Below, piece after piece: positions 12,867 through 61,106 of a stretch of DNA of 64,000 nucleotides; within the stretch, counting starts at the first letter, position 1; each line of letters starts with the position of its first letter. The DNA comes from Comamonas odontotermitis (GTDB taxonomy: Bacteria > Pseudomonadota > Gammaproteobacteria > Burkholderiales > Burkholderiaceae_C). A program made the translations under genes and the position numbers. The notes under the pieces were generated by a model, which was not told where the DNA came from, searched no databases, and saw only the letters and a list, made by a program, of their open reading frames with translations. The stretch covers positions 2,480,001 to 2,544,000 of the forward strand of contig NZ_CP083451.1 of NCBI RefSeq assembly GCF_020080045.1, read 5' to 3'.

Positions 12867-12895
12867 AGAGCCTCCCTATCGGAGGCTCTATAATT
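12867..12895 (+). terminator. intrinsic terminator of the hydroxylase gene
   Basis: AGAGCCTCC and GGAGGCTCT pair perfectly around a 5-nt loop (12867-12889), followed by ATAATTTT. The weak T run overlaps the start of dispersed-repeat copy 2. Confidence 0.75.
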
Positions 12896-12937
12896 TTGAT
12901 AGCTTGCTGCGCCCTACGGGCAAGCGCCAGAGCCACT
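12891..12937 (+). repeat. dispersed ~50-bp palindrome, copy 2
   Basis: TAATTTTGATAGCTTGCTG, then GCGCCCTACGGGCAAGCGCC and AGAGCCACTTTTGC. It fits the consensus closely and lies immediately upstream of murU, so it forms most of that gene's leader. Confidence 0.75.
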
Positions 12938-12950
12938 TTTGCAGATAACC

Positions 12951-16440: not shown

Positions 16441-16492
16441 GCCCGGGCCGGGGGCCGCTCCTGTGCACAGGCCGGCGGCCCCTATCGATTAC

Positions 16493-16546
16493 TCTCATTT
16501 TGATAGCTGCTTGCGCTTGACTGTTGAGCGCAAACAGCTGTTTTTT
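16493..16546 (+). repeat. dispersed ~50-bp palindrome, copy 3
   Basis: CTCATTTTGATAGCTGC, TTGCGCTTGACTGTTGAGCG, CAAACAGCTGTTTTTTG: one of the best-preserved copies. It lies between dctP and dctQ. Its hairpin plus T run could act as a partial attenuator, giving more binding protein than membrane subunits. Confidence 0.85.
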
Positions 16547-16607
16547 GTTAAGAAACTGGAGGAGAGAGCCCACGCACTGCCCACGCAGGCCTGCGCTTTC
16601 GAACACC

Positions 16608-20909: not shown

Positions 20910-20989
20910 GCATAGAACGCATGCAGCTGCCCTGTCACAAAATTATGGGCGTGCTTTTGGGATATGCCGCGTTTACCGGTAAAATCGCG

Positions 20990-21222
20990 GCAGTCAGGAG
21001 AGAGTCTTCGCCCCAACCGGGCAGCAAGGCCGCCGAAGGCGCAGGCTTCGATGCCGAACGCTCAGGCAAAAGGACTGGCACACGCTGATGCAGGCCTTAG
21101 CGCCGCCAGCGTCCCCAGCTGGAGAGAGATGGTGCCAAGACACCATCCACCGAAGGAGCAAGCCCCCCACGCCTCGAAGGTGCGGGGTGAATCTCTCAGG
21201 TAAAGCGGACAGCAGGGCAAAC
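20990..21222 (+). ncRNA. tandem glycine riboswitch upstream of gcvT
   Basis: Two glycine aptamers lie in a row. The first, ~20,990-21,080, runs from AGTCAGGAGAGAG through GCCGCCGAAGGCGCAGGC to CTCAGGCAAAAGGACTG. The second, ~21,117-21,222, runs from AGCTGGAGAGAGATGG through CACCGAAGGAGCAAGCC to CTCTCAGGTAAAGCGGAC. The GGAGAG / CCGAAGG / CTCAGG...AAA..GGAC pattern is diagnostic for this class. Glycine binding would turn on the glycine cleavage genes that begin 52 bases later. I could not identify a clear terminator hairpin in the short spacer, so translational or antitermination control cannot be separated by eye. Confidence 0.95.
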
Positions 21223-21274: not shown

Positions 21275-22411
21275 ATGTCCGCCTCTGCTTCCGCCGCTCT
21301 GCTCTCCACGCCATTGAATGCCCTGCACCTTGAGCTGGGCGCCCGCATGGTGCCATTTGCCGGCTATTCCATGCCTGTGCAATACCCCGATGGCCTGATC
21401 GCCGAGCACAAGCACACGCGCAGTGCCGCAGGCCTCTTCGATGTGTCGCACATGGGTCAGTTGCGCCTGGTTGGCCCCGACGCCGCTGCCGCCTTTGAAA
21501 CCCTGATGCCCGTGGATGTGATCGATCTGGCGGTCGGCAAGCAGCGCTACGGCCTGCTGCTGAACGACGACGGCGGCATTCTGGACGATCTGATGTTCTT
21601 CCGCGTCTCGCAGGATGAGCTGTTCGTCATCGTCAACGGCGCCTGCAAGGTGGCCGACATTGCCCACATCCAGGCCCGTATCGGCACCCGCTGCCAGGTC
21701 GAGCCCATGCCCAGCCACGGCCTGCTGGCACTGCAGGGCCCGCAGGCGGTAACCGCCCTCTCACGTCTGGCGCCCGGCGTTGAAAAGCTGGTCTTCATGA
21801 CGGGGGGCAACTTCGATGTGAAAGGCATCCCCTGCTTCATCACCCGCAGCGGCTATACCGGCGAAGACGGTTTTGAAATCTCGGTTGCAGGCGACCAGGC
21901 CCAGGCGCTGGCGCGCCTGCTGCTGGCCCAACCCGAGGTCAAGCCGATTGGCCTGGGTGCCCGCAACTCGCTGCGCCTGGAAGCCGGCCTGTGCCTGTAC
22001 GGCAGCGATCTGGACACCACCACCACGCCCCCCGAGGCAGGCCTGAACTGGGCGATTCAGAAGGTTCGCCGCACCGGTGGCGCACGTGCTGGCGGCTTTC
22101 CCGGGGCCGAGAAGGTACTTGCACAGATTGACAACCCCGCGACGCTGCCCCGCAAGCGCGTGGGCCTGATTGCACAGGAGCGCATTCCCGTGCGCGAACA
22201 GGTGGAAATCTGCACGCCCGATGGCAAGGCCATCGGTGCCACCACCAGCGGCCTGCTCGGCCCCACCATCGACAAGCCCATTGCCATGGCCTATGTGGAG
22301 CCAGCCTTTGCAGCCATCGGCACCCGCCTGAACGCGATGGTGCGCGGCAAGCCGGTGCCGGTCGAGGTGGTGACGATGCCATTCGTGGCCCCCAACTATT
22401 TCCGCGGCTAA
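21275..22411 (+). CDS. gcvT: aminomethyltransferase (glycine cleavage T protein)
   Basis: 378 residues. Family motifs: ARMVPFAGYSMPVQYPDGL near the start, LFDVSHMGQLRL, RSGYTGEDGFEISV, and GLGARNSLRLEAGLCLYGSD (the folate-site region with the conserved Asp). It transfers the methylene unit from the H-protein-bound aminomethyl group to tetrahydrofolate and releases ammonia. It is the first gene of gcvT-gcvH-gcvP and directly follows the glycine riboswitch. Confidence 0.97.
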   Translation: MSASASAALLSTPLNALHLELGARMVPFAGYSMPVQYPDGLIAEHKHTRSAAGLFDVSHMGQLRLVGPDAAAAFETLMPVDVIDLAVGKQRYGLLLNDDGGILDDLMFFRVSQDELFVIVNGACKVADIAHIQARIGTRCQVEPMPSHGLLALQGPQAVTALSRLAPGVEKLVFMTGGNFDVKGIPCFITRSGYTGEDGFEISVAGDQAQALARLLLAQPEVKPIGLGARNSLRLEAGLCLYGSDLDTTTTPPEAGLNWAIQKVRRTGGARAGGFPGAEKVLAQIDNPATLPRKRVGLIAQERIPVREQVEICTPDGKAIGATTSGLLGPTIDKPIAMAYVEPAFAAIGTRLNAMVRGKPVPVEVVTMPFVAPNYFRG

Positions 22412-22872: not shown

Positions 22873-22902
22873 CATTGGCAGCATGCGTACATGCTGCCAA
22901 TG
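22873..22902 (+). other. perfect 13-bp hairpin between gcvH and gcvP
   Basis: CATTGGCAGCATG (22873-22885), loop CGTA, CATGCTGCCAATG (22890-22902), with no mismatches. No T tract follows (CTTTCACTC), so it is not a classical terminator. It could protect the upstream gcvT-gcvH transcript or cause partial attenuation before gcvP. Confidence 0.8.
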
Positions 22903-22914
22903 CTTTCACTCACA

Positions 22915-22963
22915 TATTCATAGCTGCTTCCGCCCGCCTATCCTGCGCTAGTGGCACTTTCAA
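22915..22963 (+). repeat. dispersed ~50-bp palindrome, copy 4
   Basis: TATTCATAGCTGCTTCCGCC, CGCCTATCCTGCGCTAGTGG and CACTTTC. It lies in the gcvH-gcvP gap directly after the perfect hairpin, and ends 24 bases before the gcvP start. Confidence 0.7.
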
Positions 22964-22986
22964 GCACAAACATCTGGATTCCCACC

Positions 22987-25962: not shown

Positions 25963-25975
25963 TATCGTTTTCATT

Positions 25976-26024
25976 AAAAAGAGCCTCTGGCGCTTAATTG
26001 ATAAGCGCTACCAGCTATGGAAAT
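25976..26024 (-). repeat. dispersed ~50-bp palindrome, copy 5 (reverse orientation)
   Basis: On the plus strand: AAAAAGAGCCTCTGGCGC, TTAATTGATAAGCGC, TACCAGCTATGGAAAT. It is the reverse complement of the common form and its outer end overlaps the ATG of the next gene at 26017. Confidence 0.8.
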
Positions 26025-26772
26025 CATAGTCATCATCCTGGGAGCGGCCCTCGCGGGCTTTGTGCAGGGCCTGTCCGGCTTTGGCTACAGCATGACGGCG
26101 ATGGCACTGTGGGCATGGACGCTGGAGCCCACGCTTGCCGCCGCTCTGGCCGTCTTTGGCGGCCTCACCGGGCAGATCATCCAGGCTTTCAGTGTGCGGC
26201 GCGGCTTTGACTGGCGCATGCTGTGGCCCTTTGTACTGGGAGGGCTGTGCGGACTGCCGCTCGGGCTGCGCCTGCTGCCTCTGCTGAATGCACAGCTGTT
26301 CAAGACCGTCCTGGGCGTGCTGCTGGTGGTTTTCTGCCCCCTCATGGCTTTTGCACACCGGCTGCCACGCATCGCCGACTGGCGCTGCATGCAGGGGGCC
26401 GTGCTGCACATCGCCAACGGAGCAGCGGGGCTGGCAGGAGGCGTGATGGCCGCCCTGGGCGGCTTCTCGGGGGTTGTGCCCACTCTGTGGTGCCAACTGC
26501 TGGGCATGGCCCGCGACCGGCAGCGCCAGGTGATCCAGAACTTCAACCTCACCATGCTGTCCGTCACCTTTGCCAGCTATGTGGCCACCGGCTTCGTCAC
26601 TTTTCGGATGCTGCCACTGTTGGCCGTCGCGCTGCCTGCCATGCTGCTGCCTTCCATCTGGGGCGGGCGACTCTACCAACGCATCAGCGATGCAGCCTTC
26701 CGCAGGGTAGTGCTGGGTCTGCTGACCCTCGCGGGCCTTGCCATGCTGGTGTCTTCGCTACAGCACCGATAG
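26017..26772 (+). CDS. TSUP-family (TauE/SafE, DUF81) membrane transporter
   Basis: 251 residues with about seven or eight hydrophobic helices. The two family repeats are visible: AGFVQGLSGFGYSMTAMALW near residue 12 and GLAGGVMAALGGFSGVVPTL near residue 140. TSUP proteins move small anionic sulfur or carbon compounds such as sulfite, sulfonates or taurine across the inner membrane. The exact substrate is unknown. The start codon lies at the edge of a dispersed repeat and there is no clear Shine-Dalgarno in front of it. Confidence 0.87.
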   Translation: MEIIVIILGAALAGFVQGLSGFGYSMTAMALWAWTLEPTLAAALAVFGGLTGQIIQAFSVRRGFDWRMLWPFVLGGLCGLPLGLRLLPLLNAQLFKTVLGVLLVVFCPLMAFAHRLPRIADWRCMQGAVLHIANGAAGLAGGVMAALGGFSGVVPTLWCQLLGMARDRQRQVIQNFNLTMLSVTFASYVATGFVTFRMLPLLAVALPAMLLPSIWGGRLYQRISDAAFRRVVLGLLTLAGLAMLVSSLQHR

Positions 26773-31574: not shown

Positions 31575-32972
31575 ATGCAACGCCGCCAATTCTTCACCGG
31601 CGCGGCCACCGCAGTGGCCGCCGCCACTGCATCCGCAGCCGTCAGCAGGGTCGCCATGGCTGCCCTGCCCGAGCCTGTCTCTCAGGCCAGCGCCGATACC
31701 GCAGCACCGCTGAGTCCGCCCAATGGTAGGCCTTACCACCCGGTCGTTACCCTGAATGGCTGGACCACGCCGTGGCGCATGAACGCCGGCGTCAAGGAAT
31801 TCCACCTGGTGGCCGAGCCCGTGGTGCGCGAGGTAGCACCCGGCTTTTTCGTCAACATGTGGGGCTACAACGGACAGTCGCCGGGGCCGACCATCGAGGT
31901 GGTCGAAGGCGACAAGGTCCGTATCTTCGTCACCAACCGCCTGCCCGAGAGTACCACCATCCACTGGCATGGCCAGCGCCTGCCCAATGGTATGGACGGC
32001 GTGGGCGGACTCAACCAGCCCCACATCCCGCCCGGCAAGACCTTTGTCTATGAGTTCGAGGCACGCCGTCCCGGCACCTTCATGTACCACCCGCACTCCG
32101 ATGAAATGGTGCAGATGGCCATGGGCATGATGGGGCTGTGGATCACCCACCCCAAGGCGAAGCACCCTTTGATCGCCGATGTGCAGCGCGACTATGCATT
32201 CCTGCTCAGCGCCTACGCGGTCGAGCCCGGTGCCATGACGCCCCGGGTGGGCGAGATGACGGATTTCAACATCTGGACCTTCAACAGCCGCGCGTTTCCG
32301 GCCATCACACCGCTGGTGGCGAGACAAGGCGAGCGCGTGCGCATCCGCGTGGGCAACCTGACCATGACCAACCACCCGATCCACATCCATGGCCACGAGT
32401 TCGAGGTGACCGGCACCGATGGCGGCCCCGTGCCACGGTCTGCGCGCTGGCCCGAGGTGACGACCGATGTGGCAGTAGGCCAGATGCGGCAGGTGGAGCT
32501 GATGGCGGACGAACCCGGCGACTGGGCCTTTCACTGCCACAAAAGCCACCACACCATGGGCGCCATGGGACACGAGGTGCCGACCATGATCGGCGTCGAC
32601 CACCGGGGCCTCGTCGGCAGGATCCAGAAGATCGTGCCCGACTACATGCTGATGGGCGAGCGCGGCATGGGCGACATGGGTGCCATGCAGATGCCCTTGC
32701 CCGACAACACCTTTCCCATGATGACCGGCAAGGGCCCGTTCGGAAACATCGAGATGGGCGGCATGTTCACCACCTTCAAGGTGCGCAGCAACCTCGCCGC
32801 TGGCGACTACAAGGATCCGGGCTGGTATGCGCAACCCAAAGACACAACGGCCTATGAGTGGCAGGGTGCACCACTCGACGCGAAGGCGCCACGCCAGACC
32901 CTGCCGGGCGCGGCTCCCGGCGCACCCACGGTGCACAAGCCAGCCAATGCATCAGGCCACGCCAACCACTGA
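31575..32972 (+). CDS. multicopper oxidase (copper oxidase, CopA/CueO-like)
   Basis: 465 residues. A Tat-type signal (MQRRQFFTGAA) leads the protein. All copper-ligand motifs are present in order: TTIHWHGQRLPNGMDG (~127), FMYHPHSDE (~170), HPIHIHGHEF (~266) and FHCHKSHHTMGAMGHEV (~318), the last with the HCH-x3-H-x4-M signature. The C-terminal ~120 residues are Met/Gly-rich (ERGMGDMGAMQMPL), like cuprous-ion-binding extensions. It probably oxidises toxic Cu(I) in the periplasm. Second-largest gene of the cluster, tightly spaced on both sides. Confidence 0.93.
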   Translation: MQRRQFFTGAATAVAAATASAAVSRVAMAALPEPVSQASADTAAPLSPPNGRPYHPVVTLNGWTTPWRMNAGVKEFHLVAEPVVREVAPGFFVNMWGYNGQSPGPTIEVVEGDKVRIFVTNRLPESTTIHWHGQRLPNGMDGVGGLNQPHIPPGKTFVYEFEARRPGTFMYHPHSDEMVQMAMGMMGLWITHPKAKHPLIADVQRDYAFLLSAYAVEPGAMTPRVGEMTDFNIWTFNSRAFPAITPLVARQGERVRIRVGNLTMTNHPIHIHGHEFEVTGTDGGPVPRSARWPEVTTDVAVGQMRQVELMADEPGDWAFHCHKSHHTMGAMGHEVPTMIGVDHRGLVGRIQKIVPDYMLMGERGMGDMGAMQMPLPDNTFPMMTGKGPFGNIEMGGMFTTFKVRSNLAAGDYKDPGWYAQPKDTTAYEWQGAPLDAKAPRQTLPGAAPGAPTVHKPANASGHANH

Positions 32973-32988
32973 ATAAAGGATTAACACC

Positions 32989-33471
32989 ATGAAAACTATC
33001 AAATTCATAGCTGCTTGCGCTCTTCTTTCAAGCGCCAGTACCGTATTTGCACACGGCAATGAAAGCCATGCTTCCGTCCCTGCCACCAAAGAGCAAAAGG
33101 AATGGGGCATCGGCGGCGATGCCAAGGACGCCAAACGCACCATCACCCTGAACATGACGGACGACATGCGTTTTACCCCCTCGCACTTCAGCGTCAAAAA
33201 GGGCGAAACCGTGCGTCTGCGCGTGCTCAACCGTGGCCAGGTGATGCACGAGGTGGTGCTGGGCACCAAGGCCTCGCTCGACCAGCATGCGCAACTGATG
33301 CTCAAGTTCCCCGGCATGGAACATGCCGAGCCCTACATGGCCCATGTCGCCCCCCAGAAAAGCGAAGACCTGGTCTGGAACTTCAACCGCACGGGCAACT
33401 TTGATTTTGCCTGCCTGATTGCGGGCCACTACCAGGCGGGCATGACGGGCACCTTCACCGTCACCGACTGA
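32989..33471 (+). CDS. periplasmic cupredoxin (CopI/plastocyanin-like)
   Basis: 160 residues. The signal peptide (to about residue 21, TVFAHG) is encoded by a copy of the dispersed palindrome. The mature part is a cupredoxin fold with type-1 copper ligands H in VMHEVVLG and C, H, M in FACLIAGHYQAGM near the C-terminus. His-rich start of the mature protein. Close relatives such as CopI of Rubrivivax protect cells against copper. It sits 16 bp after the multicopper oxidase, with AAAGGA as ribosome binding site, and may pass electrons or copper to it. Confidence 0.88.
   Translation: MKTIKFIAACALLSSASTVFAHGNESHASVPATKEQKEWGIGGDAKDAKRTITLNMTDDMRFTPSHFSVKKGETVRLRVLNRGQVMHEVVLGTKASLDQHAQLMLKFPGMEHAEPYMAHVAPQKSEDLVWNFNRTGNFDFACLIAGHYQAGMTGTFTVTD
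33001..33047 (+). repeat. dispersed ~50-bp palindrome, copy 6, inside the cupredoxin signal peptide
   Basis: AAATTCATAGCTGCTTGCGC, TCTTCTTTCAAGCGCCAG, TACCGTA. In frame it encodes KFIAACALLSSASTV, that is, nearly the whole hydrophobic core of the signal peptide. Confidence 0.85.
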
Positions 33472-34410: not shown

Positions 34411-34462
34411 GTCTGCGTAATTTTGCAAACGCATGCGCTGCCAGCGCCTACACTGTGCAGCC

Positions 34463-35677
34463 ATGCAAAGCCTTCAAGCATTTCACGAGCAACTGCACAG
34501 CGGCGCCCTGCTCGGCACGCGCCAGATCAAGCTGTCTGCGGGTCTGCGGGAGTTTCCGCGCGAACTTTTTGCGCTCGCAGACACCCTCGAGGTGCTCGAT
34601 CTCTCGGGCAACCAACTCAGCACGCTGCCAGGCGATCTGACGCGCTTTACCCGCCTGCGCATCCTGTTTGCGTCCAACAACCCGTTTACCGAACTACCGC
34701 CTGTGCTCGGCCGCATGCCGCAGCTGGAGATGATCGGCTTCAAGGCCTGCCGCATCCGCGAAGTGCCAGCGGAAAGCCTGCCGCCAGCCTTGCGCTGGCT
34801 CATCCTCACGGACAACCAGATTCGCCACCTCCCGGGCATGCTTGGCGAGCGCCCGCGCCTGCAAAAGCTCATGCTGGCCTGCAACCAATTGCAGAGCCTG
34901 CCCGCAAACCTTGCGCAGTGCACCAAGCTGGAACTGCTGCGCATCTCGGGCAATGCGTTTGCACAGATTCCGGAGGTGGTGTTTGCACTGCCGGCGCTGG
35001 CGTGGCTGGCCATTGCAGGCAACCCATTGACTCAAAAAAATGAGCAGCTTGCGCTTTCCAGGTCAGCGCAATCCATGCAACCGGCCATTCCCTACCAAAG
35101 CCTGGAGCCGCATGAGCTGCTGGGCGAAGGCGCCAGCGGGCACATCTACCGTGCTTCTCGCATCGGTGGTGGGGATGTGGCGCTCAAGGTCTTCAAGGCA
35201 GGCCAGACCAGCGATGGCACACCCGCGTCCGAACTGGCCGCCGGCCTGTCCGCAGGCCTGCACCCCCACCTGTTGACGCCGCTCGCCCCGGTTTCGGGCC
35301 ACCCGCAAGGCAAGCTGGCCATGGCCTTGCCACTGCTGCCACCAGGTCTGCAGGCTCTGGCCGGCCCGCCCAGCATGGACAGTTGCACGCGCGACGTGTA
35401 TGCCCCTGCCTCCCGTTTTTCGCCAGCCATCGCGCAGCGCCTGCTGCAGAGCATCGAGGGCGCTGTCGGCCACCTGCATGCGCGCGGCATTCTGCATGGC
35501 GATCTGTACGCACACAATGTGTTGTGGAATCCGGCAACCGGCGATGCGGTGCTGAGTGACCTGGGCGCTGCCGCGCTGCTGCATGGCTTGCCGCAAGCGC
35601 AGGTGCAGCAGTTGCTGCACATGGAGCAGCGCGCCATGAACATCCTCCAAAGCGAAGTCCAGGCCCGTACCGCCTGA
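34463..35677 (+). CDS. leucine-rich-repeat protein with C-terminal protein kinase domain
   Basis: 404 residues from the ATG at 34463 (another ATG at 34433). Residues ~15-205 form about seven leucine-rich repeats of the bacterial small type (LEVLDLSGNQLSTLPGDL, LRWLILTDNQIRHLPGML). From ~219 comes a eukaryotic-like kinase: glycine loop LLGEGASGHIYRA, lysine in VALKVFK, catalytic HGDLYAHNVLWN and LSDLGAA in place of DFG. Catalytic Lys, Asp and Asn are kept. The C-lobe ends only ~45 residues later, so the kinase part (~185 residues) is shorter than usual. No signal peptide, so cytosolic. It follows the copper cluster by 52 bp on the same strand but shares no visible function with it. Confidence 0.88.
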   Translation: MQSLQAFHEQLHSGALLGTRQIKLSAGLREFPRELFALADTLEVLDLSGNQLSTLPGDLTRFTRLRILFASNNPFTELPPVLGRMPQLEMIGFKACRIREVPAESLPPALRWLILTDNQIRHLPGMLGERPRLQKLMLACNQLQSLPANLAQCTKLELLRISGNAFAQIPEVVFALPALAWLAIAGNPLTQKNEQLALSRSAQSMQPAIPYQSLEPHELLGEGASGHIYRASRIGGGDVALKVFKAGQTSDGTPASELAAGLSAGLHPHLLTPLAPVSGHPQGKLAMALPLLPPGLQALAGPPSMDSCTRDVYAPASRFSPAIAQRLLQSIEGAVGHLHARGILHGDLYAHNVLWNPATGDAVLSDLGAAALLHGLPQAQVQQLLHMEQRAMNILQSEVQARTA

Positions 35678-42422: not shown

Positions 42423-43205
42423 ATGACTGCCATTCCGCCCACCCCGCCAGATACGGGCATCCACCTGCAAGACGTGCACCTGACGCGCGGCGCCCGGCCC
42501 GTGTTTGCCGGACTCAGCCTGTCGCTCACCGAGCGGCGCGTTGGCCTGATCGGTGACAACGGCGCAGGCAAGACCAGTCTCTTCCGCCTGCTGTGCGGGC
42601 TTGAAATTGCAAGCCAGGGACAGGTACACATCGCAGGCCATGATGTGCAAAAGCACCGCGAACAACTGCCCGGCTTGGTGGGCATGATGTTTCAGAACCC
42701 GGATGACCAGATCATCTTCCCCACGGTGGAAGAAGAGCTGGGCCTGAGCCTGCAGTACCAGGGCATTGCGCGCAAGGCAGCCATGGTGCGGGCCCGGCAA
42801 TTTCTGGCCGAGCGGGGCCTGGCCGAATGGGCGCCACGCGCCGTCAGCAGCCTGAGCCAGGGCCAGCGCCAGCAGGTCTGTTTTCTGGCCATGCTGATGG
42901 CTGCGCCTCGGGTAATGCTGCTTGACGAGCCCTTTGCCAGCCTTGATCTGCCCGGCCAGGCGCGCCTGGCGGCCGATCTGGACCGCACAACCGCACAGAT
43001 CGTGGTGTCGACCCATGTGCTCAGCCATGTGCGCCACTTCGAGCGTGTGGTGTGGCTCGCTGGCGGCCTGGTGCGCGGCGATGGCCCGGGCGAGGCCGTG
43101 TGCGCAGCCTACGAACTGGATGTGAAAACACGCTCTAACGCTCAGACAGAGAGCGCAGACAGCTTCGAAAACAGTAGCAAAGCCGCTGTTGCGGTACAAG
43201 GCTGA
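42423..43205 (+). CDS. bioM: biotin ECF transporter ATPase (BioM)
   Basis: 260 residues from the ATG at 42423. All ABC ATPase motifs are present: Walker A LIGDNGAGKTS, Q-loop FQNPDDQ, signature LSQGQRQQ, Walker B VMLLDEPF and switch STH. NPDD-type Q-loops are typical of energy-coupling-factor ATPases. With BioN (6 bp downstream) and BioY it forms the biotin uptake system BioMNY. Confidence 0.93.
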   Translation: MTAIPPTPPDTGIHLQDVHLTRGARPVFAGLSLSLTERRVGLIGDNGAGKTSLFRLLCGLEIASQGQVHIAGHDVQKHREQLPGLVGMMFQNPDDQIIFPTVEEELGLSLQYQGIARKAAMVRARQFLAERGLAEWAPRAVSSLSQGQRQQVCFLAMLMAAPRVMLLDEPFASLDLPGQARLAADLDRTTAQIVVSTHVLSHVRHFERVVWLAGGLVRGDGPGEAVCAAYELDVKTRSNAQTESADSFENSSKAAVAVQG

Positions 43206-44451: not shown

Positions 44452-46001
44452 GCCAGCCGGTGCTCCCCCTGCAGAATTGGCAGCGCCTCGTCCACGGCCC
44501 GCTGGCGCACTGGGCGCAGGTGCAGCCCAACGCCGTGGCCATTGACGACGGCACACAGCGCATCCGCTTTGCCCAATTGCATGCCGCAGTGCAGGCGGGT
44601 GCCGATCAGTTGAACGCCAGCGCCGCACCCAGCACACGGCTGCTGGATGCCGCGCAGTCCCCCATCGCTCTCATCACCGATTTTCTGGCCACCAATGCCA
44701 GCGGCCGCTGCGCTGCACTGGGCGATGCCGCCTGGCCTGCTGCCCAGCGCGCCACTGCAGCGCAATGGATTGGCGACCTGGCAAGCCAGACGCCGGTCTG
44801 CGCAGACACAGAAAGCGCAGACCGCTATCCTTTTTATATTGGCTTCACGTCGGGCAGCACCGGAAAGCCCAAGGGGTTCCGGCGGCACCACCAGTCATGG
44901 GCCGAGAGCTTTCGCGTCTGCGTGGATACATTCGGCACGGCAGCGCAAGGCCCCGTAATGGCGCCGGGCAACCTGTCGCATTCGCTCTTTCTGTTTGGCG
45001 CTCTTCTGGGGCTGTGGACGGGCGGCGGCGTTCAATTGCAGCCGCGCTTCTCGGCCAGCCAGTGCCTGCGCAACCTGCAGTGCAATGCCACGCCCTGCTT
45101 GGTAGCCGTGCCCAGCCAGTTGCTGGTGATGCTGCAACTGGCCGAGCGCCGCGCGCTGGCGCCCATCGCGTCGCTGCAACTCGTCCTGATCAGCGGCGCA
45201 CGCTGGATGCGCCAGCACACCCCTGCGCTGCAGACGCTGTTTCCCAATGCGCGGATTGTGGAGTTCTACGGAGCATCCGAAGCCAGCTTCATCGCCTGGA
45301 TGGATGCCGATGTCGCAGCCCCACCGCAGGTGGTGGGCCGGGCCTTCAGCAATGTGCAACTGCAGATTCGCAGCGAGACAGGCGCCGCCTTGGCCGGAGG
45401 CCAGACCGGCCAGATCTGGATCAAGAGCCCGATGCTCTTCATGGATTACGTGGGCGACAGCCATGATGCCACCGCCGCGCTGCAGGATGGCGAATGGTTG
45501 AGCGTGCGCGACATGGGCAGCCTGGACGCGAGTGGCCAGCTCACCCTGGTAGGCCGCGAAAAGCGCATGATCGTCACCCAGGGCAAGAACCTGTTCCCCG
45601 AGGAAGTGGAAAACCTGCTGTGCGAGCACCCGCGCATCGCCGCCGCATCGGTGCACGGCGTTGACGACGCACTGCGTGGCAAACAGGTATGGGTGGCGTT
45701 GCAACTCAAGGATGCAGCGCCCGCGCCATCTGCGAGCGGCGCGCCACGGCAGGTACAGCCGGCGCTGGATACGCTCGACGCCGCACTGGCCGCAGAACTC
45801 TCCGCCTGGTGCCGCAGCCGGCTCGAAGCCTACAAATGCCCGCGCCGCTGGCTGGGCTGGTTCGCGGTCGCACCCGCTGCGCCATGGCCGCAAACTGCCA
45901 GCGGCAAGACCGACCACACGGCGATTGCAACACTGCTGCAAAGCAGCATGGATCCACCCATGGCATCCGTGGTTGCAACAGCAGACACGGCGACACGTTA
46001 A
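44448..46001 (+). CDS. AMP-forming acyl-CoA synthetase-like enzyme in the biotin operon
   Basis: 517 residues from the GTG at 44448, overlapping bioY. ANL-family motifs: YIGFTSGSTGKPKGF (P-loop), EFYGASEASF, GEWLSVRDMG, VGREKRMIVTQGKNLFPEEVE and catalytic lysine region PQTASGKTDH. It should activate a carboxylic acid as acyl-AMP and then acyl-CoA. The N-terminal third is shorter than in long-chain ligases. Given its overlap with bioY, a pimelate-like or other biotin-pathway acid is a fair guess, but the substrate is not shown by sequence. Confidence 0.85.
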   Translation: MSQPVLPLQNWQRLVHGPLAHWAQVQPNAVAIDDGTQRIRFAQLHAAVQAGADQLNASAAPSTRLLDAAQSPIALITDFLATNASGRCAALGDAAWPAAQRATAAQWIGDLASQTPVCADTESADRYPFYIGFTSGSTGKPKGFRRHHQSWAESFRVCVDTFGTAAQGPVMAPGNLSHSLFLFGALLGLWTGGGVQLQPRFSASQCLRNLQCNATPCLVAVPSQLLVMLQLAERRALAPIASLQLVLISGARWMRQHTPALQTLFPNARIVEFYGASEASFIAWMDADVAAPPQVVGRAFSNVQLQIRSETGAALAGGQTGQIWIKSPMLFMDYVGDSHDATAALQDGEWLSVRDMGSLDASGQLTLVGREKRMIVTQGKNLFPEEVENLLCEHPRIAAASVHGVDDALRGKQVWVALQLKDAAPAPSASGAPRQVQPALDTLDAALAAELSAWCRSRLEAYKCPRRWLGWFAVAPAAPWPQTASGKTDHTAIATLLQSSMDPPMASVVATADTATR

Positions 46002-46028
46002 AGTAGCCCCTGTCGCGCTGCGAAAGGC

Positions 46029-46081
46029 GCTATCAAAATAAAAGCTGTCAGCGTCCTCTTATAAAGCGCTAGCGGCCGTTT
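46029..46081 (+). repeat. dispersed ~50-bp palindrome, copy 8
   Basis: GCTATCAAAATAAAAGCTGT, CAGCGTCCTCTTATAAAGCG, CTAGCGGCCGTTT. It fills most of the 89-bp gap between the synthetase and thiolase genes and ends 9 bases before the thiolase start. Confidence 0.75.
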
Positions 46082-52802: not shown

Positions 52803-54365
52803 CTACTCGTCGCCTGCTGCGAGACCCAGTTCCTGGATCTTGCGCGTGATGGTATTGCGGCCAATGCCCAGGCGCTGCGCGGCTTCGATGCGTTTGCCGT
52901 GCGTGGCAGCCAACGCTGATCGGATCAGTTGGGATTCAAACCGGCGGCTGAGAATGTCCCACACTTCGGTGCTGCCCGACTGCAGCAGCGCATCGGCCTC
53001 CCGCGCCAGATCGGATTCCCATGGTGGTGCGGAACCTGAGGTAGCTGCAATGGAAGGGCGAGGTGCTTCTGCAAACGGTACAGCATTGCCATTTGCTACT
53101 GAATTAATAGCTACTGACGCTTGTGGAACAAGCGCAATAGGCGTCTCTGGCATCAGGGCCTGCGGTACCGGTGCAGCGGATATGCCAGGCCCAGCCGTGC
53201 TTTGCAGCACTTCGGGTGGCAAATCCTGCTCGGACACACGCTGGGCTGGCGCCATCACGGTGATCCAGTGGCAGATGTTCTCGAGCTGCCGCACATTGCC
53301 CGGAAACCCGAACTGCGCCAGCCGTGCCAGCGCGCCTTCGGACAGCTGCTTGGGCTCCACCCCCAGCTGGCGGGCACTGGCCGCCAGAAAATGGCGAGCC
53401 AGCATCGGAATGTCTTCCTTGCGTTCGCGCAGCGGCGGCAGCCGCAGACGGATCACGTTCAGGCGGTGAAACAAGTCTTCGCGGAACACGCCCTTTTGAA
53501 CGCGCTCTTCCAGGTTTTGGTGCGTGGCGGCAATCACCCGCACATGCGATTTGACTGGCACATGGCCGCCCACCCGGTAGAAATGCCCGTCGGAGAGCAC
53601 ACGCAGCAGACGGGTCTGCAGATCGAACGGCATATCGCCGATTTCGTCGAGAAACAGCGTTCCGCCCTCGGCCTGCTCAAAGCGACCCCTGCGCTGGGTC
53701 TGCGCGCCGGTGAAGGCGCCGCGCTCATGGCCGAACAATTCGGATTCGAGCAGGTCCTTGGGAATGGCTGCGGTATTGATGGCCACAAACGGTCCGCCCG
53801 CCACCGGAGAGTGCTTGTGCAGCGCGCGCGCCACCAGCTCCTTGCCCGATCCGGATTCGCCGGTCACCATCACGGTCACATTGCTTTGCGACAGGCGCCC
53901 GATGGCACGAAAGACATCCTGCATGGCGGGCGCCTGGCCCAGCATCTCGCCGCTGCCCGCAGACTGGGCCGGGTCCGGCATCTGGCTCTGGCTTTGTTGC
54001 ACGGCACGCTGGATCAGCTCCACCGCCTTGGGCACGTCAAATGGCTTGGGCAGGTACTCGAAAGCACCGCGCTGAAAGGCTGACACCGCGCTGTCGAGGT
54101 CGGAGTACGCCGTCATGATGATGACTGGCAACTCGGGCTGGGCTGCATGCAACTGCTCCAGCAGCTGCAAGCCGTTGCCGCCCGGCATGCGGATGTCGCT
54201 AACCAGCACGGACGGTGCCTGCGATGGATCCTCGTTCGAGGCGAGCGCCTCCAGTACCTCCTGCGGATGCACAAAGCTGCGCGTGGGCAGTTGCTCGCGC
54301 GCCAGCGCCTTCTCGAGTACGAACCGGATCGAAGGGTCGTCGTCCACTATCCAGATGGGTTTCAT
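52803..54365 (-). CDS. ntrC: nitrogen regulation response regulator NtrC (GlnG)
   Basis: 520 residues from the ATG ending at 54365. Receiver domain (MKPIWIVDDDPSIRFV; phospho-Asp in VLVSDIRMPGGNG ~residue 57), AAA+ sigma-54 activator domain with GESGSGKELVARAL and the sigma-54 contact GAFTGA in ERGAFTGAQTQRRGRFEQ, and a C-terminal Fis-type HTH (AAQRLGIGRNTITRKI). The linker between the AAA+ and DNA-binding domains (~410-470) is longer than usual and partly encoded by a dispersed-repeat copy at 53094-53142. It activates nitrogen-starvation promoters such as that of glnA upstream. Transcribed with ntrB. Confidence 0.96.
   Translation of the reverse strand: MKPIWIVDDDPSIRFVLEKALAREQLPTRSFVHPQEVLEALASNEDPSQAPSVLVSDIRMPGGNGLQLLEQLHAAQPELPVIIMTAYSDLDSAVSAFQRGAFEYLPKPFDVPKAVELIQRAVQQSQSQMPDPAQSAGSGEMLGQAPAMQDVFRAIGRLSQSNVTVMVTGESGSGKELVARALHKHSPVAGGPFVAINTAAIPKDLLESELFGHERGAFTGAQTQRRGRFEQAEGGTLFLDEIGDMPFDLQTRLLRVLSDGHFYRVGGHVPVKSHVRVIAATHQNLEERVQKGVFREDLFHRLNVIRLRLPPLRERKEDIPMLARHFLAASARQLGVEPKQLSEGALARLAQFGFPGNVRQLENICHWITVMAPAQRVSEQDLPPEVLQSTAGPGISAAPVPQALMPETPIALVPQASVAINSVANGNAVPFAEAPRPSIAATSGSAPPWESDLAREADALLQSGSTEVWDILSRRFESQLIRSALAATHGKRIEAAQRLGIGRNTITRKIQELGLAAGDE
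53094..53142 (+). repeat. dispersed ~50-bp palindrome, copy 9, inside ntrC
   Basis: Plus strand: TGCTACTGAATTAATAGC, TACTGACGCTTGTGGAAC, AAGCGCAATAGGC. On the coding (minus) strand it translates in frame as about 17 residues (PIALVPQASVAINSVA) within the NtrC linker. Confidence 0.8.
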
Positions 54366-57895: not shown

Positions 57896-58045
57896 GTTTT
57901 ATGACATCTGCCCGGTCCATGTTGCCGGCAACTACCCGGCCCGGCCTGCCACCGTACCGAGCGTGACTGTACCGCGCTTTGCCAGCTTGGGACAGCCGTT
58001 GCAGGGGAATTTGTACAACTCCCTGGCCTGCCCCCACCCTGCTAT

Positions 58046-58062
58046 CGCACCACCTCGGTGCA
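58046..58062. promoter_or_regulatory. NtrC binding site (weaker)
   Basis: CGCACCA-CCT-CGGTGCA, one arm mismatch from the TGCACCA-N3-TGGTGCA consensus. About 185 bp upstream of the expected glnA start point. Confidence 0.75.
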
Positions 58063-58113
58063 ATTTACCGCCCACGCACAAGCCTCGGCAGGATGCACAG
58101 TTTTGACGCTAAA

Positions 58114-58132
58114 TTGCACCAAATTGGTGCAA
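58114..58132. promoter_or_regulatory. NtrC binding site (perfect palindrome)
   Basis: TTGCACCA-AAT-TGGTGCAA, an exact match to the NtrC consensus, about 250 bp upstream of the expected glnA start point and 28 bp beyond the stop of the EI24 gene. It lies upstream of glnA together with the weaker site, as expected for an enhancer pair. Confidence 0.88.
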
Positions 58133-58159
58133 TGTATATTCTACCGCGCACCGATTTGG

Positions 58160-59167: not shown

Positions 59168-60226
59168 TCAGGCCTTGTTCAGCAGGCGGAGCACCCCGCG
59201 CCACTGCTGGCTCCAGAAACCGCTGCCGTAGTCGCGCAACTGGCCTTGCCTGTTGGGCTGCACCTGGTCGCGGATGCCGGTCGGGTCGTAGCGCAGCTCA
59301 AAATTGGCAGTGCCAAACAGCATGTCCCACCAGGGCAGCAACACACCGAAGTTGCAGCCTCCCAGGCGCGGGCGGGCTTTTGTAGTGTTGATTGCTTCTT
59401 TTTTGATAGCATTCTGCGCTTGACTGTCTTGCGCTGTAGACGTATTTCCCTCCAAACCCTTGGCTGGCGACTCATGCCCGATGCCAATCGCATGGTGGCG
59501 GCGGTGAAAGCGTGGGCTGATCCACAGCCGCTCGCCCAGCGTGCCAAACCATACGCGCAGATTGGCATGTTGCAGGCTCTCGCTCAACTGGGTGATGGCG
59601 ACGATGGCCACAAACTGGCTCGGGGCCATACCGATCAGCACGGCGACCAGCACCAGAATGCTGTCGGTCAGGATATCGTCCAGCAGGTGGTTGCGGTTGT
59701 CGCTCCACATCGTCATCTGGCGCTGCGAATGGTGCAGTGCATGCAGCTTCCACCACCAGACGAAGCTGTGCTGGCCACGGTGGATCCAGTAGGCCACAAA
59801 GTCGAAAATCACCAGATAGATCAAGAGGCTGACCCAGGCCACATCGGTCACGCCCGGCCAGAGTGCGTCCACATGCCAGGTCTCAAACCCTTGCATGCGC
59901 AGGCTGCCTACCAGCCAGTCCCACAGGGGGTCGATGGTAAAAAAGAGCGCCAGGCGGAACAGCCCCAGGCGGTGGATCAGCGTGTAGAGAATATCGATGC
60001 GGATGGCGTGCTTGTCGGTCACCGCCTCCACCGGGCGCCAGCGCTGCAGCGGCGCAATCACCAGCACCATGATGACAATCTGCAGGCAGCCCACCAGAAA
60101 CCAGCCAGCGGCGGTGTAGCCATCTTCCAGAAAGTTGGCCAGGCCCATATTGAACAGGAGCGGCTGGAACACCTGTTCAAACACCCATTGCTGGGCATTG
60201 TCAAAAAGAGAGCTGAAGAATTCCAT
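59168..60226 (-). CDS. sterol desaturase / fatty acid hydroxylase family membrane protein (second copy)
   Basis: 352 residues. Di-iron His boxes HRGQH (~170), HALHHSQ (~182) and HRRHHAIG (~243). After GIGHESPAKG it carries an unusual hydrophilic stretch (EGNTSTAQDSQAQNAIKK ... KARPR) that is encoded by a dispersed repeat (59391-59448); the family pattern resumes at CNFGVLLPWWDMLFG. The start codon lies in TTCCATAGCTAGAAAT, itself a remnant of the same repeat. O2-dependent lipid-modifying enzyme; substrate unknown. Confidence 0.87.
   Translation of the reverse strand: MEFFSSLFDNAQQWVFEQVFQPLLFNMGLANFLEDGYTAAGWFLVGCLQIVIMVLVIAPLQRWRPVEAVTDKHAIRIDILYTLIHRLGLFRLALFFTIDPLWDWLVGSLRMQGFETWHVDALWPGVTDVAWVSLLIYLVIFDFVAYWIHRGQHSFVWWWKLHALHHSQRQMTMWSDNRNHLLDDILTDSILVLVAVLIGMAPSQFVAIVAITQLSESLQHANLRVWFGTLGERLWISPRFHRRHHAIGIGHESPAKGLEGNTSTAQDSQAQNAIKKEAINTTKARPRLGGCNFGVLLPWWDMLFGTANFELRYDPTGIRDQVQPNRQGQLRDYGSGFWSQQWRGVLRLLNKA
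59391..59448 (+). repeat. dispersed ~50-bp palindrome, copy 10, inside the second hydroxylase gene
   Basis: Plus strand: ATTGCTTCTTTTTTGATAGC, ATTCTGCGCTTGACTGTCTT, GCGCTGTAGACGTATTTC. Translated on the minus strand in frame, it gives about 19 hydrophilic residues. Confidence 0.82.
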
Positions 60227-60296: not shown

Positions 60297-61106
60297 TCAA
60301 TGGCTGCGAATCCATTCACGGTACTGGGGGTGATCGCGCAGGGTGGCAAAGCAGAAGCCCTGTGCCTTGAGGCCCTGGATCAGCGGCTGCAGCACGGCAG
60401 GCGCCCAGGGATCCTTGCGGTCCCAGATGCCCAGGTGCGCCAGAAGAATGTCGCCGGAGCGGATGTTTCTGAGCGCCTTGTCCAGCAGCATGGCATTGGG
60501 ATATTTGTCGCTGGGCAATTCATCGCCCAGAAAACCGGCGGGCGACCAGCCTACGTGGGCGTAACCGCAGCTTTGCGCCGCAGCAATCAGCGCGGGCGAA
60601 GTCTTGCCGCCAGGCGCGCGAAACAGCGGCAGTGGCTTGGTACCGGTGATCTGCTGCAGGCGGTCTTCGGATTTCTTGATTTCGGCACAGTATTGGGGCA
60701 CGGTCATCACCGCAGTCTTGCCCGCAAGAGGCCCCTGCGATGGGCGCACCGTGAAGCTGCGCACAGCGCCCTGCTCCGTCTTCCCATCGGCACGCCAGTA
60801 CACATGGTCCCAGGTATGCGAGGCAAAGGCATGGCCTTCAGCCGCGCGCGCCTTCCACCAGGGGGTCCAGTGCTCGCCCAGGCTTCCGTCACCCTCCTTG
60901 GTGCGCTCGTTGGCGGCAAAAAAGGTGACTTTCACATCTTCCTGCTGCAGCACCTCGGCAATCCTGTCGGCCACTCCCATGTGGCCGGTATCCAGCGTCA
61001 GATAGACGGGTTTGCTGCAACTGGCTGCCGAGTTTGCATGATTTTTCGCTCCTACGCCCATAGGCAGAGCGCCAGCAGCTATCAAAAATAGAGTGCTCAG
61101 ACGCAT
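60297..61106 (-). CDS. exported polysaccharide deacetylase-family protein
   Basis: 269 residues. The signal peptide MRLSTLFLIAAGALPMGV is encoded by a dispersed repeat. The NodB-type catalytic motifs are YLTLDTGH (metal Asp, with the second Asp of the usual TFDD replaced by Thr), ASHTWDH (two His) and FRAPGGK. Further C-terminal: GDILLAHLG. It probably removes acyl groups from a cell-wall or exopolysaccharide. It follows the beta-propeller gene by 12 bp in the same direction. Confidence 0.85.
   Translation of the reverse strand: MRLSTLFLIAAGALPMGVGAKNHANSAASCSKPVYLTLDTGHMGVADRIAEVLQQEDVKVTFFAANERTKEGDGSLGEHWTPWWKARAAEGHAFASHTWDHVYWRADGKTEQGAVRSFTVRPSQGPLAGKTAVMTVPQYCAEIKKSEDRLQQITGTKPLPLFRAPGGKTSPALIAAAQSCGYAHVGWSPAGFLGDELPSDKYPNAMLLDKALRNIRSGDILLAHLGIWDRKDPWAPAVLQPLIQGLKAQGFCFATLRDHPQYREWIRSH
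61041..61091 (-). repeat. dispersed ~50-bp palindrome, copy 11, inside the deacetylase signal peptide
   Basis: Plus strand: ATTTTTCGCTCCTACGCCC, ATAGGCAGAGCGCCAGCAGC, TATCAAAAATAG. Translated on the minus strand it supplies LFLIAAGALPMGVGAKN, i.e. the hydrophobic core of the signal peptide, in the same frame as copy 6. Confidence 0.85.

Follow-up and report, generated by a model that had tools for sequence, protein, structure and literature searches.

The copper locus, the deacetylase gene and the element at two gene starts

The DNA analysed here, referred to as the window, is a stretch of 64,000 nucleotides from Comamonas odontotermitis (contig NZ_CP083451.1, positions 2,480,001 to 2,544,000), which contains a copper locus with the gene order multicopper oxidase, CopI-like cupredoxin and DUF411 protein, and a separate polysaccharide deacetylase gene. 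The predicted signal peptides of the cupredoxin and the deacetylase are each encoded by a copy of an imperfect palindrome of about 60 nt, which is scattered through the Comamonas genome of the window. We propose that unrelated proteins have, several times over, recruited this dispersed, mostly intergenic palindromic repeat of the Comamonadaceae as their export signal, a reading that rests on sequence comparison and to which we assign a probability of roughly 0.85. The genes concerned are:

31575..32972, + strand: multicopper oxidase, upstream of CopI (PF07732, 134.6 bits)
32989..33471, + strand: CopI-like copper cupredoxin, 160 aa, signal peptide followed by AHG... (PF13473, 29.4 bits; PF00127, 28.9 bits)
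60297..61106, - strand: polysaccharide deacetylase family protein, 269 aa (PF01522, 72.4 bits)

For the cupredoxin, PF00127 and PF13473 score above their cutoffs, and the CopI model NF051440, with 104.7 bits, falls short of its cutoff (280). Positions 32989-33051 read ATG AAA ACT ATC AAA TTC ATA GCT GCT TGC GCT CTT CTT TCA AGC GCC AGT ACC GTA TTT GCA, which translates as MKTIKFIAACALLSSASTVFA, and the element occupies codons 2-21 with its ATA at codon 7. In the deacetylase, which has matches in 104 of 150 genomes of the family (E<=0.001, some weak and partial), the frame is the same and the ATA is codon 9. An earlier sequence-only reading, which had placed the element at 33001..33047 (codons 5 to about 20), located it correctly but drew it too short, as it extends from 32986 to 33054; that reading also had the deacetylase (start at 61106) use the element in the same frame and equally far from the start codon, of which the frame holds and the distance does not. 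The signal peptide of the multicopper oxidase (MQRRQFFTGAATAVAAAT...) is element-free and was used as a codon control.

A dispersed palindromic repeat

Copies of the element were scored with R1, a covariance model of 69 positions and 14 pairs, made from 27 of the 30 loci that a search of the own genome with the 14-mer ATAGCTGCTTGCGC had yielded (L and G numbers denote loci and genomes of this study). The three loci set aside were that of the cupredoxin (L008), one that coincides with L003 (L004) and one that is not copy-like (L001); as the 30 loci did not include the deacetylase copy, R1 was built without either of the two copies at issue. Its full-length match to the cupredoxin copy upholds the earlier claim that a dispersed palindrome encodes the core of this signal peptide. 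The copies in the window are:

32986..33054, + strand: dispersed copy, signal peptide of the CopI-like cupredoxin (R1 52.1 bits, E 2.6e-11, all 69 positions)
61035..61103, - strand: dispersed copy, signal peptide of the polysaccharide deacetylase (R1 36.2 bits, E 6.1e-7, full model)
16482..16550, + strand: best dispersed copy in the window, among the 27 model rows (R1 68 bits)
25971..26039, - strand: dispersed copy adjoining a gene start (R1 39.1 bits)
22899..22967, + strand: dispersed copy upstream of a gene (R1 33.4 bits)
12878..12946, + strand: dispersed copy (R1 32.7 bits)
53086..53154, + strand: copy within an opposite-strand coding sequence, polar linker LMPETPIALVPQASVAINSVANGN (R1 29.7 bits)
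45994..46054, - strand: dispersed copy (R1 28.3 bits)
59385..59453, + strand: copy within an opposite-strand coding sequence, LEGNTSTAQDSQAQNAIKKEAINT (R1 25.9 bits)
43119..43187, - strand: weaker copy at the 3' end of an opposite-strand coding sequence (R1 24.6 bits)

The best of these, at 16482..16550, lies outside the called genes, although a gene extended upstream might overlap it by a few bases. R1 gave at least 150 matches in the own genome, all 150 at E < 0.02 and 140 of them distinct; scoring covered 150 first-look candidates per genome (here 150 of 4890), and copy numbers are therefore lower bounds. The 14-mer, with at most one mismatch, matches 83 times in this genome of 4.83 Mb, and the reversed control pattern 0 times. 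In 59 copies compared with their flanks, conservation starts about 7 positions inside the 5' end of the model and stops a few nt past its 3' end, which indicates a unit of about 60-66 nt, and the flanks themselves have no conserved sequence. The palindrome is weakened in both coding copies of the window, with fold z values of -1.97 and -0.54 against -4.92 in one intergenic copy.

As a control for chance, R1 was run on six genomes of the family that lack the pattern of an ATG plus the 14-mer; these gave 0, 0, 0, 0, 0 and 1 matches (E<=0.1), and the single match showed no convincing signal peptide on reading. Five further genomes, chosen later, gave 0 (G147), 0 (G018), 3 (G132), 85 (G099) and 136 (G035) matches as lower bounds; because G099 and G035 are rich in matches, a genome without the pattern may still hold the repeat family. 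A main role as transcription terminator between convergent genes was rejected, as 15 of 90 intergenic copies lie in convergent gaps, compared with 135 of 847 gaps overall, i.e. without excess. In a scan of the window, the element gave no match to an Rfam family above threshold, and a literature search for strings of the repeat, supplementary files being outside it, found no paper on it.

Copies within genes of the own genome

In the sense direction, frame 0 of the element reads IAAC/S/G, frame 2 reads SCLR or variants, and the third frame holds a stop. All 140 distinct R1 matches were placed relative to genes using a strict home-made coding filter and gene caller. By this account 129 lie outside coding frames, a figure that is too high because the filter overlooked at least one copy that a called gene contains (L269), while six are N-terminal in sense frame 0, one is N-terminal in sense frame 2 (a doubtful case upstream of an EamA gene), three are antisense and N-terminal, and one is antisense and internal; the gene caller placed the start of the deacetylase too far downstream. 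Four of the six frame-0 N-termini belong to exported-type proteins, namely CopI, the deacetylase, a DsbD-like protein (MAYDGKRLPLRALFFTLLFIATSALWTGANAQ...; PF11412, 62.9 bits; PF02683, 71.5 bits) and a cupin (..LWLSASVLIAAGALLLGEKAHSE..; PF07883, 57.8 bits). The other two are a doubtful open reading frame (L473) and a position within a short-chain dehydrogenase (L511). Export-signal copies, 4 of 140, compare with about 0.19 expected in frame and on the right strand, a rough estimate that assumes signal peptides in 15% of genes, and the earlier claim that such use exceeds chance is borne out to this extent. A 34% sample of the genome (80 evenly spaced stretches plus the window, 1.664 Mb) gave 118 distinct matches (E<=0.3), of which 71 fall between called genes, and the signal-peptide copies in it were those of the two window genes only; the whole-genome list raised the count to the four named.

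By the strict filter, coding frames hold 11 of the 140 matches (two of them doubtful), including those in HemD, CobU, Lon-like, NUDIX (these four assigned by Pfam) and DsbD-like proteins. Antisense copies in coding sequences read as mostly polar, Ala/Gln-rich stretches. Such in-gene copies occur at 53086-53154, 59385-59453 and 43119-43187 of the window, at L492, L493, L495, L304, L269 and L273, and as FEQNQPLASVQKAQTAIKK in the NUDIX protein.

Probable recruitment in related genomes

Signal peptides were read by eye from translations, with start codons assumed, as a positive start, a hydrophobic core and an AXA-like or lipobox site, together with Pfam domains. The pattern ATG-N(3,33)-ATAGCTGCTTGCGC is present in 38 of the 150 genomes of the family. 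Among the places listed, which comprise 90 loci of this pattern (30 from the search and 60 chosen as open in frame) and 60 loci of two sister patterns, N-termini with an ATG at most 16 codons away number 57 + 24 = 81 in frame 0 and 24 + 7 = 31 in frame 2, and those open for at least 50 codons 26 + 14 and 6 + 0, respectively. The Pfam scan covered 25 frame-0 proteins, 15 of which matched a family, and two frame-2 proteins, neither of which did. Twelve of the frame-0 proteins were taken to be of exported type and to have their signal peptide from the element, namely SCO1 (L318, L440), LolA (L334, L323), TctC (L214, L419), SIMPL (L343), DctP (L212), deacetylase (L352), DUF3047 (L355), SLT_2 (L348) and M16 (L418); all of these combine the features of a signal peptide with an exported-type mature domain, as judged by eye and by Pfam. 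The difference between 12 of 81 in frame 0 and 0 of 31 in frame 2 has a two-sided Fisher P of 0.035, with 25 and 2 proteins scanned. R1 matches at full length, with 23-48 bits, in the nine counted proteins of the first set (57), the three of the second set being unscored.

Several candidates were not counted, among them the cytosolic protein at L417. At L337 the element precedes the likely core, and L433 has a second start and a signal peptide downstream. L350 and L221 look exported and match no family, and L473, L349, L313, L322, L315, L436, L446, L420 and L414 were left out for want of a family.

The TctC protein at L419 starts with MTLSRRNTIKFIAASA, in which an SRR motif stands in a signal that includes the element. 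We take this signal to be Tat-like from the motif, and Tat-type signals may have formed from the element too. Similar strings were seen in G015 and G095, that of G095 being the SCO1 protein at L440.

A further case is found near CopI in Polaromonas-type loci (L136-L140, L143, L158, L168, L171, L176 and L199), where the gene preceding CopI by about 600 nt starts with the element in frame 0, in 11 of the 11 loci with a match there. In this gene the element lies nine codons behind an ATG or GTG (e.g. MTTRFTLKLIAASALLVGAGGTFGQ), and three of the encoded proteins, when scanned, matched PF13801 Metal_resist with 34.1, 31.6 and 27.0 bits (cutoff 29.2, the third being below it). CopI itself is without the element at its start in those loci. 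Altogether, about 13 unrelated protein families, including CopI, the DsbD-like protein and the cupin, have the element as signal peptide.

Distribution and age

The element is found at the same codons of CopI in Comamonas, Acidovorax, Paenacidovorax and several further genera, whereas Polaromonas, Variovorax, Diaphorobacter caeni, G147 and three Comamonas genomes gave no R1 match at the CopI start. Mapped on a tree built from 109 mature CopI sequences, presence of the element needs 7 changes compared with 22.8 for shuffled labels, although with 139 columns for 109 rows gains and losses are not safely separable. At gene starts, R1 (E<=1) matches in 16 of 30 LolA loci (those examined being L372-L401 and L520) and in 11 of 30 deacetylase loci. 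The element in LolA, CopI and the deacetylase is therefore old, being common to several genera, and has probably been carried mainly by descent. Element-coded and element-free CopI signal peptides are of about equal length, so that capture looks like a replacement, or like a gain after which the old signal peptide was lost. A Comamonas odontotermitis cupredoxin that is 98% identical to that of the window (L121) differs at bases of the element (ACC for ACT, ATC for ATA and GTT for GCT), which demonstrates that the match to the element can decay.

Presence of the element in CopI goes together with presence of the dispersed family. Among 30 CopI loci in genomes of the family, 12 are carriers (E<=10, the weakest with 13.8 bits), 17 are non-carriers and one has its start cut by a contig end (L088). 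All 12 carrier genomes hold further copies, 10 by pattern and G035 and G099 by model only, compared with 4 of 17 non-carrier genomes by pattern, the model having been run on only a minority of the latter. The co-occurrence has a P of 6e-5 with pattern and model mixed and of 0.0025 when both groups are judged by pattern (10 of the 12 carriers, 4 of the 17 non-carriers), in both cases with descent as a confounder. G147, whose CopI is 72% identical, has neither the element in CopI nor dispersed copies. The sequence-only reading had named as a refutation that signal-peptide DNA of this type be shared without the element elsewhere in the genome. This was not the case in any CopI-carrier genome, and the one exception met, the LolA of G018, is weighed below. 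Recurrence and co-occurrence thus support its suggestion that noncoding palindromes may be recruited as export signals.

Frozen silent sites

In 20 carriers of the element in CopI, third-position GC amounts to 0.415 for the signal peptide, compared with 0.856 over the remainder of the gene. All 20 have GCT as codon 8 and 19 of them have ATA as codon 7, whereas ATA makes up 2.9% of the Ile codons in sampled genes of the own genome. As a measure of silent conservation we took the probability with which a rare (unfavoured) codon recurs in a partner sequence that has the same residue there. Among 27 CopI orthologues with 64% identity or more, chosen independently of the model, this is 0.61 for the signal peptide and 0.128 for the mature part; a value of 0.753 was discarded, as it had been inflated by taking model-positive genes only. 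LolA gives 0.633 compared with 0.187 (26 of 30 loci), and the deacetylase 0.453 compared with 0.149 (27 of 30 loci). High silent conservation is not a general trait of signal peptides here, since the element-free multicopper oxidase gives 0.096 in the signal peptide and 0.193 in the mature part (22 of 28 loci; one row, L141, is misplaced). The left half of the element is closer to the dispersed consensus than the right half, with identities of 0.76 and 0.58 in CopI (20 copies), 0.76 and 0.40 in LolA, and 0.71 and 0.62 in dispersed copies.

The silent sites may be frozen because copies decay slowly, because selection acts on the DNA or RNA close to the start, or because captured copies exchange sequence with dispersed ones. 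A variable doublet of the element (TT, CA or TG) occurs in mixes that differ between genomes. It can be recognised in 17 signal-peptide copies of LolA, CopI and deacetylase genes, and in the 15 of these that were compared it tracks the mix among the pattern matches of the own genome better than when shuffled, with 93 of 20000 shuffles as good. This leans towards exchange; the set is small, the genome counts include a few signal-peptide copies, and descent is a confounder. Conceivably, though we think it unlikely, the dispersed family is a self-refreshing stock of export signals, in which captured copies exchange with dispersed ones by conversion or re-insertion and so keep their silent sites frozen. 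If true, such exchange would explain frozen silent sites beside a saturated remainder of the gene.

Proposed mechanism and alternatives

We propose the following mechanism. On the sense strand and in one frame (..TTN ATA GCT GCT TGC GCT..), the left half of the element encodes a hydrophobic core, F/L-I-A-A-C/S/G-A, and the drifted right half provides the stretch before a cleavage-like site. A copy just behind a start codon and before a mature export domain would then supply or replace the signal peptide; the element-coded peptides would direct export, and the copies would have arrived by transposition or copying.

Several observations weigh against recruitment of the repeat for export. Most copies are not signal peptides and recruitment is rare; the frame test is moderately significant, and its candidates had been pre-selected by the exact 14-mer and an upstream ATG. 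Frame 0 also begins a protein for which no export is expected, the cytosolic DUF934 protein at L417 (117.7 bits), and is carried internally by the short-chain dehydrogenase at L511. Three element-free Comamonas CopI genes are nested among carriers, where the tree suggests that the element has decayed, and the LolA of the own genome is, by eye, without the element. The LolA signal peptide of G018 matches weakly (L382, 23.5 bits) in a genome with 0 matches at E<=0.1, and may be a decayed relic or a chance match. Finally, no transposase was linked to the element, the one PF01797 match in the genome being at a locus without an R1 match.

The alternative that survives best is that of tolerance, whereby random insertions near gene starts persist where the encoded peptide is harmless and nothing is gained. 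The mostly polar reading of antisense copies in coding sequences, from which filtering by encoded peptide seems general, and the cytosolic N-terminus of L417 in the same frame speak for it. In the counted genes, however, the element is the hydrophobic core, with no other core behind it by eye, so that export would depend on the element. We regard bare tolerance as doubtful, and it differs from recruitment by emphasis and not by fact.

The stretch could also be kept for its DNA or RNA, be it to bind a regulator, to serve as target of a small RNA or to leave the start of translation unstructured, with the hydrophobic reading as a by-product. Both the frozen silent positions of CopI codons 7-8 and the better preservation of the left half in CopI and LolA would fit such selection. 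Against this, the 25 scanned frame-0 N-termini include 12 of exported type and one clearly cytosolic, whereas in the other frame 0 of 2 has a family; and in the Comamonas odontotermitis gene for the 98% identical protein, the signal peptide differs at 6 of 66 nt and the rest at 26 of 414, i.e. it changes at least as fast. This explanation therefore appears improbable to us.

Much the same resemblance might arise by convergence, if Leu/Ile/Ala-rich signal peptides and A/T-rich gene starts came to look like the repeat by chance. Codons 2-21 in the own genome do lean this way (third-position GC 0.69 against 0.77 in the rest, ATA 5.9% against 2.9% of Ile codons), and the weak G018 LolA match could be such a case. 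Yet the best matches cover the whole model of 69 positions, including its non-hydrophobic flanks; eight genomes of the family (the six pattern-free ones, G147 and G018), with all their ordinary signal peptides, yielded 1 R1 match in total (E<=0.1); and the element-free signal peptide of the same loci is without frozen rare codons, which together make convergence very improbable. The reverse origin, in which the dispersed repeat descended from an old signal-peptide gene, would fit an element common to several genera in LolA, CopI and the deacetylase, but is equally hard to credit given some 13 unrelated families with the element, arm pairing slightly better in dispersed copies (0.73) than in CopI (0.65) or LolA (0.67), and dispersed copies that have common boundaries and come without a start codon or mature domain.

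Relation to known repeats

REP elements and REPINs, which are associated with RAYT transposases, are short, palindromic, high-copy and mostly intergenic, and the repeat described here resembles them in all four respects. Membership of the REP/RAYT system was rejected, as the sole match to PF01797 (Y1-type transposase) in the genome, with 47.8 bits, lies in a 3.3-kb locus (L402) without an R1 match (E<=1). Rickettsia palindromic elements (RPE) are described as palindromes that occur both in intergenic DNA and, in frame, inside unrelated genes (PMC2229807, PMC10969869), as does this repeat in its own genome. As far as the cited descriptions go, RPE are about 100-150 bp long and form inserted peptides, whereas the present repeat is of about 60 nt, forms an N-terminal export signal and belongs to Betaproteobacteria. 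The enterobacterial repeats RU-2/YPAL and RU-1 (Delihas 2007, 2008; Yersinia RU-2) have been proposed to supply export signals (PMC2759123, PMC2229807); in the portions of these reports on which we draw, the proteins concerned are few, mostly putative and short, whereas here about 13 families are involved, including LolA, DsbD-like and SCO1 proteins, several across genera and with frozen silent sites. Correia/NEMIS and other small bacterial miniature inverted-repeat transposable elements are, by the account drawn on here, small inverted repeats scattered over the genome, and in some of them open frames are fused to genes (PMC2229807). The present element is likewise a dispersed small inverted repeat, for which the analysis established neither terminal repeats outside the hairpin nor a target duplication. 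What is new in comparison with earlier repeats is the recurrence in conserved genes of about 13 families and several genera, together with the frozen silent sites.

Other features of the window

Near the copper genes, positions 34433-35677 encode a leucine-rich-repeat protein with a protein-kinase-like domain (PF13855, PF00069), an unusual setting. Two adjoining glycine riboswitch aptamers (62.4 and 47.9 bits) lie at 20985-21222, before an open frame at 21275, and a separate near-palindrome at 58044-58133 has arms of 27 nt that are 81% complementary and 36 nt apart.

Implications for protein export

If the proposed recruitment holds, the repeat is a traceable source of new signal peptides, i.e. 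a noncoding repeat that already holds a hydrophobic core. Repeat DNA would thus have been taken up by conserved envelope and copper genes (LolA, DsbD-like, SCO1, CopI and Metal_resist) and kept across genera, and the turnover of export signals would become directly testable in cultivable environmental bacteria.
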